A DNA stretch of 64,000 nucleotides from Candidatus Zixiibacteriota bacterium. GTDB taxonomy: Bacteria; Zixibacteria; MSB-5A5; GN15; JAAZOE01. Position numbers and translations under genes: made by a program. Every line of letters starts with the position of its first letter. The stretch's first letter is position 1. The notes beneath the pieces are model-generated. The model was not told the origin of the DNA. It searched no databases and saw only the letters and a program-made list of their open reading frames with translations. Of the stretch, positions 44,880-60,114 are shown one piece after another. The DNA lies in NCBI GenBank assembly GCA_036480375.1, contig JAZGGI010000029.1, positions 1 through 64,000 of the forward strand. Reading direction: 5' to 3'.

Positions 44880-44896
44880 TGGCACCAACTTTGCAA
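44880..44896 (+). promoter_or_regulatory. Sigma-54 (-24/-12) promoter of a lipoprotein gene
   Basis: TGGCACCAACTTTGCAA is a full match to the consensus TGGCAC-N5-TTGCA, with GG (44881-44882) and GC (44893-44894) ten bases apart. The start codon at 44948 follows 52 bases later. Confidence 0.8.
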
Positions 44897-47782: not shown

Positions 47783-49639
47783 CTACACATTTTTGATGTC
47801 GCGAGAATCAAAAATTCGATTATTTGTATCCGTGGCGACTGATAGGGGAAGGCGAATTTCGCAGCGAGCTCCGGATTGATATGTGCCGTCAAAGCCAATG
47901 CTGCCTTCATGTAGATTTATTATTTTTCTCGTTAAGGCAAGGCCCAATCCCGTACCGGAAGGCTTCGAAGAGACAAATGGCGTGAATAATTTATTCATCA
48001 TTTCTTTATCAATTCCTGGGCCGTTATCGATTATGGAAATAATTACTTCATTCATGGCATGGACTTTTGCCGAAATCTCAATTCTGCCGTCGTGATCTAT
48101 TTCCTGAATCGAATTATCAATTACATTTGAGAACGCTTCTTTCAGTAGCAGGGAATCTCCAATTATTCCAATTTGTTCGATCGGCAGGGTTATGATAATC
48201 GATATATTTCGTTCTTGTCCAATTAGCATAAATTTTTGGGCAATGTCATCTATTAATTCCCCAAGATCTATCTGATCCGGCGATAAAGACAGCGGTCGGG
48301 AAAAATCAAGAAATCTGCGAACCATTTGTTCCGAGGCGGCCGATTCCGACCGAATCGAATCGGCAATTTCGGACATTGATGATTCTCCCTTGGTTTTTTT
48401 CTTGAGAAGTTGGGAAAATCCTGAGATTGCCGCCAGCGAATTACGGAGTTGATGCGCAAGTCCCGCCGTCATTTCTCCCAGGGCGGCCATTTGTCTATTT
48501 ATCTCCAATTCCGATTGAAGTTGTTTTACTTCGGTTAAATCCGTAATCAATAGGGTGATGCCCATAGCCCGGTTCCGGTCATCGAAAATTTGAGAACTTT
48601 CAATACCCAACCATACCCGCATATTGCCCTGACGGAACAATTCCAGCTCTCTCCGGCAGACAGTTTCACCTCGTTCCAGTCCTGCTTCAATAATACGATT
48701 TATTTCCGGTTCGTCGGAGAAAGCGGTCAGATAATGCCTTCCAAGCACCGAACTTTCTTCATAACATAAAATCTCAACCGCGGCGTGATTATAGCCCATA
48801 ATTTTACCGGTCAAATCGACGTTTATAATACCTGAGCCAATGGATTTTAGAATATATTTATTCAGCCTTTCCAGTCGATCGGCTTTATTTGAGCTTTCCT
48901 CATATAAGCGTTTTAGTTCAATCTCATTCTCTTTTAATTGTCTAATGCTATCTTTATAGGAATTTATTACCTGCGTTACATCATCATCATCATCGGAAAT
49001 CGACTTGAGATGCCCGGCTTCCTCCGCCGTCTTACGCATTTGCTTAAATGGCCGCAAAATCAAGCGGGGTAAGATTATTGTCAGAGGTACCAGCAGGATT
49101 AGAATTATAATGGCCGGATAAATAGCATATCGCGATGCCTGACCGATGTCATCGACGACTCGGGAATCGGCCTGCAAGGCTAAAAGAATAACCTTCCCGT
49201 TAGAAAGACGATTAACGGCAAGACCATATCTTATTCCGGCGATTCTGCCACGATGGAATTTCATCTCCCCTTGCCATAATCGTTTCCAGTCCTCGGCTTC
49301 AATGGAGGGGAATGCTTTGTCTAATTTACTTAAATTGCCGGGAACTTTATTAAAAGCCTCAAGGGAATCCATGATATGCAAATGCGCCCCCAGCAGCCCA
49401 AAATTCCTTTTCAGATATTCCTCTTGCTCGGGTAATAATATACCCTTTTTGTTTTTCCCGATCATTGCCGCGCCATAATCCAGAGCGGACGCGAGATTTT
49501 CGTCTATTTCGGAAATTGCCCGACGCTTGGCCTGGTAAAACAAATACGTGGTACTGATATTAAGAAGCAGAAGGAGAACTACGATGATGAGTAACCCCAT
49601 TCTGATTTCAGTCTCATATCGATTTATCAGGGTACGCAT
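47783..49639 (-). CDS. PAS-domain sensor histidine kinase (NtrB/AtoS type)
   Basis: A 618-residue membrane kinase. TM1 is at about 14-36, a periplasmic sensor part at 37-170, TM2 at 172-194, a HAMP-like linker and coiled coil to about 258, and a PAS domain at about 262-372. The phosphorylated histidine is H396 in GEMTAGLAHQLRNSL. The ATPase domain has the N-box NVIDNSIQEI, G1 DNGPGI and G2 GTGLGLAL. Kinases with this H-box commonly pair with sigma-54-dependent response regulators; three sigma-54 promoters lie in this window, but no response regulator does. The ribosome site before the ATG is weak. Confidence 0.9.
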   Translation of the reverse strand: MRTLINRYETEIRMGLLIIVVLLLLLNISTTYLFYQAKRRAISEIDENLASALDYGAAMIGKNKKGILLPEQEEYLKRNFGLLGAHLHIMDSLEAFNKVPGNLSKLDKAFPSIEAEDWKRLWQGEMKFHRGRIAGIRYGLAVNRLSNGKVILLALQADSRVVDDIGQASRYAIYPAIIILILLVPLTIILPRLILRPFKQMRKTAEEAGHLKSISDDDDDVTQVINSYKDSIRQLKENEIELKRLYEESSNKADRLERLNKYILKSIGSGIINVDLTGKIMGYNHAAVEILCYEESSVLGRHYLTAFSDEPEINRIIEAGLERGETVCRRELELFRQGNMRVWLGIESSQIFDDRNRAMGITLLITDLTEVKQLQSELEINRQMAALGEMTAGLAHQLRNSLAAISGFSQLLKKKTKGESSMSEIADSIRSESAASEQMVRRFLDFSRPLSLSPDQIDLGELIDDIAQKFMLIGQERNISIIITLPIEQIGIIGDSLLLKEAFSNVIDNSIQEIDHDGRIEISAKVHAMNEVIISIIDNGPGIDKEMMNKLFTPFVSSKPSGTGLGLALTRKIINLHEGSIGFDGTYQSGARCEIRLPLSVATDTNNRIFDSRDIKNV

Positions 49640-57009: not shown

Positions 57010-57036
57010 TTGGCACTCTCCCTTAGCGAGTGACAA
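57010..57036 (-). promoter_or_regulatory. CIRCE operator (HrcA binding site)
   Basis: The inverted repeat TTGGCACTC-N9-GAGTGACAA is a near match to the consensus TTAGCACTC-N9-GAGTGCTAA. It lies 36 bases before the hrcA start, between promoter and gene. HrcA should repress the operon here. Confidence 0.92.
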
Positions 57037-57470: not shown

Positions 57471-58937
57471 TTAACGTTTTTTATAACCTCCTCTTTTAGA
57501 TGACGATGATGATTTTGGGGATTTGCTCGACTTGACAGAACCGCTTTTTGAACCTCCGGAGCTTTTATGGCTACCGGAGGATTTTGAGGAGGACTTCACG
57601 CTCGAAGAGCCCCCACCTTTTTTCTTGGCCGGGGTTGAGCGCTGTGTCGGTCTTGATTTGATCGATTTCGGTGAGCCGCTTTTCCTGATAGCCGGGGCGG
57701 TTGATTTTTTTGAGCCGCCGCTCTTCTTTATCACTTTGGATGATTTTGAACTTCCGGTTTTGCCAGGGCTTTTACTCGTTTCCCGTTTGGTTGAGCGGAC
57801 AGTATTACTTCTCCGAGATTTGTCTGTTTTCCTTGAATCAGATTTTCTGGTATTCCAGCTATCCCAGCGATTACCTGTCTTTTTAGTACTCTTGGTCGTC
57901 TTCCGTGAATCGATACGTGCCTTCGATTTGGCCGATCCGGTTGTACGTTTACTGGTGCCTTTTTCAAGCTTGGTCCCGGTCCCCGGACGCGAGAACTTGT
58001 CGGTTTTGATCCGAGTTGATTCGGTTCGTGTTGTTTTAAGTCTCTTCTCTGAAAGAACGTAATCAGATTTCCGGTATTTCCGCGACTGAGTGCGGACATC
58101 TTTATAGCGGCTGACCTTGCTGCGACTCGTTTTGACAACGGTTCGATCAAAGTAAATCGTCGTATTGTTATGCACGTTCATATGATGCTCCCAGCAATAT
58201 CCAAAGCGATCATAGATCGTGAACCAATGCCACCCAACAACGATTCTCGGTACCCATAACGGAGCGATTCCGATAAAGATGCCATCCACATATATTTCCC
58301 CGCCATAAGGATAATCGATGTATATCATCGAATAGTAGGGATCATCGTACCAATGCGTCGGCACATAAACCGGCTGATAGTAATATTGAGAAGTCTTAAC
58401 ATAAATCGAGGTGTGATCATAAGCCCGGAGACAATCATCCCGGCGGCATTTGAAATACCTTTCGTTAATTTCCTCAATAAAATCTTCAGGATCTTCGTAT
58501 GCCCCCAGTGTAATATTGGCTCCGTCGTACCAGCGCGGCATTTCGATCTTTTCCACTGAAGCCACGGCTTGTATATGTTCGATTCCTTCCGGCCCCGACA
58601 CAATCAGGCTATAATCGGAATAACCTCCCGGAATCGAGTAAAGTTCGCCGCCTTCAATGAATCCATCATCCCTGGGATTTTCCGGGAAGAGAAGATTGAC
58701 ATCGCCTCTCGTATCGACGCTGTAAATCGCGGCAAAACAATCGCGGTCGGCCTGGAAAAAGATCGTTATCTCTTCGCTCTTGTAATATATGCCGTCCTCG
58801 TTATCGACCCAGACGTCAATTTCAAGTGGTTGCTTATTTGGGCCGTTATGATATTCCTTGACCAGCGTCTGCGACATGGCAGATAACGGCATTAACATGA
58901 AGGCCGTTATAATTGAAATTATCGTGAACTTTTTCAT
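57471..58937 (-). CDS. Exported DUF4384-domain protein with long basic Ser/Lys tail
   Basis: A 488-residue protein. Signal peptide (MKKFTIISIITAFMLMPLS), then a DUF4384 domain (about 45-150: YYKSEEITIFFQADRDCF, NLLFPEN). A Tyr/Trp-rich stretch (about 180-250) is followed by a PEGA-like segment (GGEIYVDGIFIGIAP). The last ~210 residues are low-complexity Ser, Lys, Arg and Thr, with repeated KSS/KSG patterns and no aromatic residues. Such a tail could bind acidic surfaces, glycans or nucleic acid. The ATG lies behind AAGGAGG, which is inside the end of the FN3 lipoprotein gene. Confidence 0.75.
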   Translation of the reverse strand: MKKFTIISIITAFMLMPLSAMSQTLVKEYHNGPNKQPLEIDVWVDNEDGIYYKSEEITIFFQADRDCFAAIYSVDTRGDVNLLFPENPRDDGFIEGGELYSIPGGYSDYSLIVSGPEGIEHIQAVASVEKIEMPRWYDGANITLGAYEDPEDFIEEINERYFKCRRDDCLRAYDHTSIYVKTSQYYYQPVYVPTHWYDDPYYSMIYIDYPYGGEIYVDGIFIGIAPLWVPRIVVGWHWFTIYDRFGYCWEHHMNVHNNTTIYFDRTVVKTSRSKVSRYKDVRTQSRKYRKSDYVLSEKRLKTTRTESTRIKTDKFSRPGTGTKLEKGTSKRTTGSAKSKARIDSRKTTKSTKKTGNRWDSWNTRKSDSRKTDKSRRSNTVRSTKRETSKSPGKTGSSKSSKVIKKSGGSKKSTAPAIRKSGSPKSIKSRPTQRSTPAKKKGGGSSSVKSSSKSSGSHKSSGGSKSGSVKSSKSPKSSSSSKRGGYKKR

Positions 58938-58938
58938 C

Positions 58939-59871
58939 TTAAATTCCCTCCTTTCGGGAGATATCAAGACTCATTGTCTTATTACCTGTGAGGGCAATCT
59001 TATTCACATCCATAAATTTATTGTTCTTTTCAGGTGTACGCAAATAGTTATCCGGCCGCGGTCGTTCCGGTTTGGTCGTCAATGGCTTCAACTCCGGATT
59101 GCCTGTATCAACCTGAAACGCCCAGTCAAATAATACATTATCATCATTGATAGCCGTGACCCGCAATTTCGCAAAATGATTATCGCCTGTCCAGATGATA
59201 TACGTATGGTCAAGGATGACTTCCGACCAGCCTAAATATGACCAGCCATCATCGGGAGCGTAGCCGATCTCATCTAAGTTTTCCGTATATCCCATATCCT
59301 GAATATCTGTGTATTCATCCGCGACATTTATATAAAAAACTCCATGGTCAGCGTAATATTCAAGATAGATATCGGCCTCGAGGCTGGAGTATGGCACAGT
59401 TACCTCAGCCGAGAAATCCCATCCGGAATATAATGGCATGGTATTGAAATCAAATACGGTACGATTGATTCCTTCGGGTCGGGGCGTATCAAAGACATAC
59501 TCATACGATAAATCCGACAAATAACCGTCTTCATCCACCGACGATATGGCGTAGAAATAAGTATTACCGTTGACAACATTGTCATCGACAAAATACTCAT
59601 TTATGGTCTCGCCTATTTCAATATACCCGGTATCAGGATCGGTATCCGAACGATAAATAACATAAGCATCAAAATCACCGGCGACATCATCGATCGGAAG
59701 CCAGTAGAGTAGGATTTCTCCATCACCGGTTACGGAATAAACACCCTGAGGTACCGGTGGAGGACCTTCTTCACCGACATAAACTACTTCCGTAATATAT
59801 TCAGTATCGTTATCACAGGCTACTATGAGAAAGGCTGACAGGGCCAGAATTGTTAGTATTAGTGATTTCAT
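58939..59871 (-). CDS. FN3-domain lipoprotein under sigma-54 control
   Basis: A 310-residue lipoprotein (lipobox LIVAC, Cys about residue 19). A fibronectin type III domain spans about 42-125 (PQGVYSVTGDGEILLYWLP), followed by an acidic beta-rich domain with many aromatic residues. The C-terminal tail is basic. The ATG at 59871 follows GGAGGTAGAA; an upstream in-frame ATG at 59961 would lie in the promoter and is rejected. Its stop is one base before the start of the DUF4384 gene, so both are made from the sigma-54 promoter at 59904-59920. Confidence 0.8.
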   Translation of the reverse strand: MKSLILTILALSAFLIVACDNDTEYITEVVYVGEEGPPPVPQGVYSVTGDGEILLYWLPIDDVAGDFDAYVIYRSDTDPDTGYIEIGETINEYFVDDNVVNGNTYFYAISSVDEDGYLSDLSYEYVFDTPRPEGINRTVFDFNTMPLYSGWDFSAEVTVPYSSLEADIYLEYYADHGVFYINVADEYTDIQDMGYTENLDEIGYAPDDGWSYLGWSEVILDHTYIIWTGDNHFAKLRVTAINDDNVLFDWAFQVDTGNPELKPLTTKPERPRPDNYLRTPEKNNKFMDVNKIALTGNKTMSLDISRKEGI

Positions 59872-59903
59872 TTCTACCTCCAGTTTTTTATTCAACAAAG
59901 TTA

Positions 59904-59920
59904 TTGCAAAGAGCGTGCCA
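59904..59920 (-). promoter_or_regulatory. Sigma-54 (-24/-12) promoter of the FN3/DUF4384 operon
   Basis: On the minus strand TGGCACGCTCTTTGCAA is a full match to TGGCAC-N5-TTGCA, with GG and GC ten bases apart (59918-59919 and 59906-59907). The start codon follows about 33 bases later. The region upstream contains dyads CCTATGC-G-GCATAGG (59984-59998) and CGCAC-N7-GTGCG (60007-60023). Confidence 0.8.
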
Positions 59921-59983
59921 CATTTCTTTAAACGATTCATGTGTTTGCTATACAATAACATACGTCCACCGTTAAATATGCGC

Positions 59984-59998
59984 CCTATGCGGCATAGG
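59984..59998. repeat. Palindrome upstream of a sigma-54 promoter
   Basis: CCTATGC-G-GCATAGG is a perfect dyad of seven bases each side. It lies 65-80 bp upstream of the -24 GG, a plausible position for an activator site. It does not match the dyad of the other two sigma-54 promoters. Confidence 0.4.
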
Positions 59999-60006
59999 CG
60001 ATATTC

Positions 60007-60023
60007 GCACTTTTTTTGTGCGT
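60007..60023. repeat. Inverted repeat upstream of a sigma-54 promoter
   Basis: CGCAC-N7-GTGCG lies 88-104 bp upstream of the -24 GG at 59919. The spacer is all T. It could be an enhancer site or a terminator-like hairpin. Confidence 0.35.
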
Positions 60024-60114
60024 TGTCTCTTCTGGATGCACTTTTTCATTACCTATTAAATATCGCTATTATTCGCCTTGGCGGACCCTTATATTTTTGA
60101 CAGACAGAAAGCTC

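Follow-up and report, generated by a model that had tools for sequence, protein, structure and literature searches.

The operon encoding an FN3-like lipoprotein, a DUF4384 protein and a small exported protein is probably driven by a sigma-54 promoter with a tandem NtrC-type enhancer, on which the NtrC-family regulator encoded at C29:86805-88142 would act from a distance; we put this reading at roughly four in five. The operon lies in the window, the whole 64,000-nucleotide stretch analysed here, from the genome of a Candidatus Zixiibacteriota bacterium (G000; 3.59 Mb, 50 contigs). Its upstream region was compared with those of relatives in four families, f1 (the window's own) to f4. The features of the window are collected in Table 1.

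Table 1. Features in and around the operon (positions in the window)
Feature	Position	Strand	Basis
PAS-HisKA-HATPase histidine kinase, candidate sensor	47783..49639	minus	domains and synteny
Presumed CIRCE-like element before hrcA-grpE-dnaK-dnaJ, a separate heat-shock unit beside the operon	57010..57036	minus	3/18 mismatches
Third operon gene, small exported protein with a D-N-N-N-N-G-I-D-D loop	57115..57414	minus	sequence; other regions
Second operon gene, DUF4384 protein with a weak PEGA match	57471..58937	minus	domain search
First operon gene, lipoprotein with an FN3-like part	58939..59871	minus	FN3-like chains in PDB profile search
GGAGG ribosome-binding site of the lipoprotein gene	59877..59881	minus	sequence
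Predicted transcription start	59894	minus	from the -12 C at 59906
Sigma-54 -24/-12 promoter TGGCAC-GCTCT-TTGCA, TGGCACGCTCTTTGCA	59905..59920	minus	exact consensus match in the window
CCTATGC-G-GCATAGG dyad, non-conserved, probably outside the enhancer	59984..59998	none	G000 only, 67 loci scanned
Proximal predicted activator site CGCACAAAAAAAGTGCG (CGCAC-T7-GTGCG), centre near -120	60006..60022	minus	conserved GCAC-N7-GTGC
Distal predicted activator site, one clear GTGC arm at 60038-60041, 31 bp from the proximal site	60038..60052	minus	conserved arm

Promoter, operon and upstream sites

The perfect TGGCAC-N5-TTGCA promoter that the initial annotation had placed before the operon is present on the minus strand, and the lipoprotein ATG at 59871 together with the GGAGG in front of it fits a start near 59894. 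Exact copies of this motif occur twice in the window against 0.03 expected. The promoter had been counted as the third of its kind, which did not hold, as the window has only two perfect sites and a tolerance of one mismatch adds a single further one (11240), with 1.2 expected by chance. Of the three units said to encode exported proteins, two were examined, and both encode lipoproteins by sequence. Across G000, exact TGGCAC-N5-TTGCW occurs three times, and one mismatch gives 81 matches versus 55 in the reversed control. The third exact site (C36:17652-17667, L027) lies about 650 bp from an activator match on the same strand (C36:18314-18820).

The gene rpoN was found in 72 of 79 genomes and in all 44 good ones, and G000 has one rpoN match and 19 strong sigma-54 activator domains (23 matches were listed, the last four of them weak). 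The lipoprotein has orthologues in all seven family genomes and in 70 of 80 genomes of the order, including 44/44 good ones. From the 70 genomes with a match, 68 loci were examined (without G022 and G037), of which 67 had a start (G053 had none) and 66 enough upstream sequence (G012 had 16 bp); distances and the -12 position were scored in 64, without G063 and G064, whose starts are seemingly wrong. A sigma-54-like site, scored with hand-made weights at a threshold of 18 or more, was found in 64 of the 66 upstream regions against 3.75 expected. GG at -24 and GC at -12, separated by N10, are exact in the window and in 7/7 f1 genomes.

Both dyads named in the initial annotation, CCTATGC-G-GCATAGG and CGCAC-N7-GTGCG, are in place. 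In the window alone they are no better than chance: shuffling the 297-bp gap produced a dyad with 7-bp arms (spacer 0-10) in 97 of 500 trials, and in 78 of 500 the number of dyads with 5-bp arms equalled or exceeded the observed one. Only the relatives tell the conserved dyad and the other apart, so that the expected conservation in orthologous operons stood for CGCAC-N7-GTGCG and failed for CCTATGC-G-GCATAGG, which is ruled out as a conserved site. GCAC-N7-GTGC, which has its sole copy in the window here, occurs in 52 of 66 orthologous upstream regions against 0.26 expected, and a chance origin is thereby excluded, although the counts are not independent because the relatives share ancestry.

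By family, GCAC-N7-GTGC is found in 6/7 f1, 45/45 f2 and 0/12 f4 regions. The right arm is kept in all 12 f4 regions, with GAACA or GACCA as the left arm; in the two f3 genomes both sites were recognized by eye, the distal one having the better left arm. Of 64 loci, 52 have a second GTGC arm that lies 31 or 32 bp upstream of the proximal site. The distance from the dyad to the -24 box is mostly 80-81 bp in f2 (79-82, two at 71), 80-81 bp in f4 and 101-105 bp in f1, a variation of 4 bp within the last. For G004 and G017 the script had chosen the distal site, and the proximal ones, re-read by eye, lie near 103-104 and 82 bp. A dyad followed by 62-92 bp and a promoter was found at 46 places in 40 of 79 genomes and nowhere in the reversed control. 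The conserved candidate activator sites thus lie within the 80-200 bp upstream that is expected of enhancer-driven sigma-54 promoters.

A related arrangement was seen in a MAG labelled WOR-3 (L089, 5772-5890), where GCACAAAAATTGTGC stands 68 bp before the sigma-54-like TGGCAACGGATTTGCT and a lipoprotein gene follows. Its GTGC arm is at 43 bp, not 31-32, and the genes after the lipoprotein encode a DUF6600/FecR protein and a small D-K-D-R-D-G protein.

Across the eight regions compared, the lipoprotein and DUF4384 genes are present in 7/7 others, hrcA in 6/7 and the small protein in 3/7, two of these matches covering 17-19 residues only. The neighbouring element before hrcA is CIRCE-like. The C-terminal part of the lipoprotein gave matches to Pfam HmuY in 9 of 36 members at E <= 0.01 (best 0.0015), the window protein itself falling under the cut-off at E 0.031; an AlphaFold2 model built from two sequences has a mean pLDDT of 40. 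Our literature search found nothing published on this operon and, in the library searched, no paper joining DUF4384 with sigma-54.

Candidate activator, sensor and further targets

The likely activator gene can be named because it adjoins the operon in many relatives. A same-strand NtrC-family activator gene lies directly upstream at 56 of 66 loci, that is, in 42/45 f2 loci with data, 2/2 f3, 12/12 f4 and 0/7 f1. The distance from the end of the match to the ATG is 604-775 bp for three of the 56 and 158-417 bp for the rest. In f1 the operon is instead preceded by purD on the opposite strand in 6/7 genomes (none in G003). The G000 orthologue of the operon-adjacent gene, C29:86805-88142, is 57-58% identical and lies about 27 kb from the operon; the other 18 activators of G000 do not exceed 46.1%, apart from L015, whose 49-52% covers just 230 residues. 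It carries the domains of an NtrC-family regulator, namely a receiver, a sigma-54 AAA+ domain with GAFTGA and a Fis-type HTH, and is most likely the regulator of the operon as judged from these comparisons. A barrel-like gene adjoins it in G000 and is matched in 5/7 other regions; a nearby EF-G-like gene is matched in 3/7. Since f1 retains the sites although the activator gene is not beside the operon, the protein would there act from a distance. None of the 19 activator loci of G000 contains GCAC-N7-GTGC, so there is no sign of autoregulation, which we discard.

In the proposed mechanism, the activated regulator, an orthologue of the gene that adjoins the operon in most f2, f3 and f4 loci, would bind two sites of the GCACAA-N3-TTGTGC type, 31-32 bp apart and at about -120 and -150 relative to the start. 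It would then loop the DNA, and its AAA+ domain would open the sigma-54 polymerase at the promoter, switching on the lipoprotein, the DUF4384 protein and the small exported protein. Sensing could fall to the histidine kinase of Table 1, with a signal that may be envelope-related. A protein matching this kinase over 518-613 residues (29-50% identity) lies beyond dnaK-dnaJ in all eight relatives checked, and it is a possible sensor for the activator on grounds of synteny, kinases being large families. Neither those kinase stretches nor the window yielded a second full-length sigma-54 activator; the search gave one 108-residue receiver match, in G078. No kinase adjoining the activator gene was recognized in eight regions annotated by eye.

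The strict motif GCACANWWWNTGTGC was found in 57 of 79 genomes, among the matches listed, versus 5 of 79 in the reversed control. Three of the 29 extra loci are the upstream region of this same operon on another contig (G012, G037, G039), where the activator gene stands before the site at the contig end. Nine are followed by a good promoter at a distance of 79-82 or 103-105 bp (G020, G021, G022, G024, G053, G001, two in G005, and contig C26 of G000), and 17, including three in G000, have no promoter at such a distance. The target on C26 has its promoter, CGGCATAAACATTGCA, at 105 bp before a gene for a 553-residue exported protein. A locus in G055 (L220), not among the 29 because it deviates from the strict motif, resembles the nine. 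Scanning nine target proteins gave two weak barrel matches under the cut-off. The same predicted site and spacing are thus found before other genes for putative exported proteins, one more of them in G000. Half-site matches outside the known targets were also noted (L246, L250, L254 and G000:C17:1501, L249).

The second perfect sigma-54 site of the window (44880-44895, plus strand) precedes another lipoprotein gene, with orthologues in all seven family genomes. The orthologue loci have a sigma-54-like site in 6/8 and an upstream TATCGGCAA in 4/8, and GCAC-N7-GTGC in 0/8, which supports different activators for the two promoters; the initial annotation had suggested that the operon may answer to an activator of a different kind from its other sigma-54 units. 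That the operon has a sigma-54 promoter with an activator of its own is likewise well supported by rpoN, the 19 strong activator domains and the dyad conserved in relatives.

Other readings and the -12 position

The conserved sites could be bound by another regulator, whether from among the other 18 activators or outside the sigma-54 system, with the adjacent activator gene a mere neighbour. Adjacency alone is no proof of binding and the f1 gene is located elsewhere; outside f1 the sites lie between the activator gene and the operon, which makes adjacency and conservation partly the same evidence. We nevertheless regard another regulator as unlikely, given that the gene adjoins the operon in 56 of the 59 non-f1 loci with data, and given the tandem spacing and set distances to the -24 box, which fit an enhancer. 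The same position after the activator gene would also suit a transcription terminator, or an RNA hairpin, marking the end of that gene. This explanation is scarcely credible and was rejected, as f1 keeps the dyad in 6/7 genomes with no activator gene before it (purD being there in 6/7), the window dyad has no T-run after it on the operon strand, and the same site and spacing recur at other genes. As for CCTATGC-G-GCATAGG, its location between enhancer and promoter would be compatible with an additional site peculiar to this genome, serving perhaps a repressor or a regulator of purD, a possibility to which we give little credence, since the dyad is absent from the other 66 loci and the shuffles readily produce its like.

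The -12 position raises a further alternative. GG at -24 is found in 64/64 scored sites, whereas the -12 dinucleotide is GC in 7/7 f1 and GA or GT in 43/45 f2 and 12/12 f4; in G035 the promoter picked by the script was false, and the likely one (AGGCACGCAGCTTGTT, 81 bp) brings the f2 count to 44/45. With the -12 C gone, the f2 and f4 promoters might no longer be of the sigma-54 type and be read by another sigma factor, but the invariant -24 GG, the retained enhancer spacing and the GC throughout the window's family make this very unlikely. Sigma-54 control being the preferred reading, the two families without the -12 C keep both the -24 GG and the enhancer, and GC stays where the activator gene is non-adjacent. 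In E. coli a less conserved -12 C accompanied low-level bypass transcription, as described in the accessible part of PMC4551910. It is conceivable, if doubtful, that the families form a natural series of leaky versus tight sigma-54 promoters, in which the -12 base would tune activator-independent expression of an envelope operon. Second-target promoters in f2 have GC at -12 in 5/6 (Fisher p 5e-5, in a small hand-picked set); those in f1 have it in only 2/4, which weakens a family-wide rule. TTGA/TTGT sites searched genome-wide in three f2/f4 genomes gave 45 matches versus 33 in reversed controls.

Relation to known systems

The proposed switch of this operon adds one more case to a familiar type. 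In glnA the NtrC sites are spaced about 32 bp apart. The GCAC-N7-GTGC arms resemble the NtrC enhancer of enterobacterial glnA (TGCACCAnnnTGGTGCA, as given in an excerpt of PMC8743547), for which a variant spelling, TGCACC(A/T)4TGGTGCA, appears in part of PMC4987338, and tandem sites upstream of a sigma-54 promoter are described in the available text of PMC4740811. The outer arms and the N7 spacing match, whereas the inner bases here are AA/TT and not the CC/GG of TGCACC...GGTGCA, the site of NtrC proper. The targets differ as well, being exported proteins rather than nitrogen genes, and neither ntrB nor glnA was recognized by eye beside the activator gene in eight regions, the kinase lying elsewhere in the cluster. 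The best PDB sequence match of the candidate activator is 4l4u (E 2e-111 over residues 4-443), which we take to be Aquifex NtrC1; the likeness is one of sequence alone.

Activator sites paired with sigma-54 promoters are likewise a feature of the Desulfovibrio vulgaris sigma-54 regulome, and the words lipoprotein, GCAC and GTGC are absent from the main text of that paper as far as it was accessible (PMC4641369). The present comparison points to a probable activator of the operon with its predicted binding site, to a candidate sensor and to a few exported-protein targets, and the separation of the activator gene from the operon in f1, with the sites kept, offers a natural test of the pairing. 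In the LuxO/qrr enhancers of Vibrio, enhancer-promoter indels follow the DNA helical repeat (excerpted text of PMC4740811); the targets there are small RNAs, whereas here they are a protein operon, and f1 also has 103-105 bp. The main distance steps here, 71, 81 and 101 bp, are consistent with the helical-repeat fingerprint that the same text proposes for enhancers (PMC4740811).
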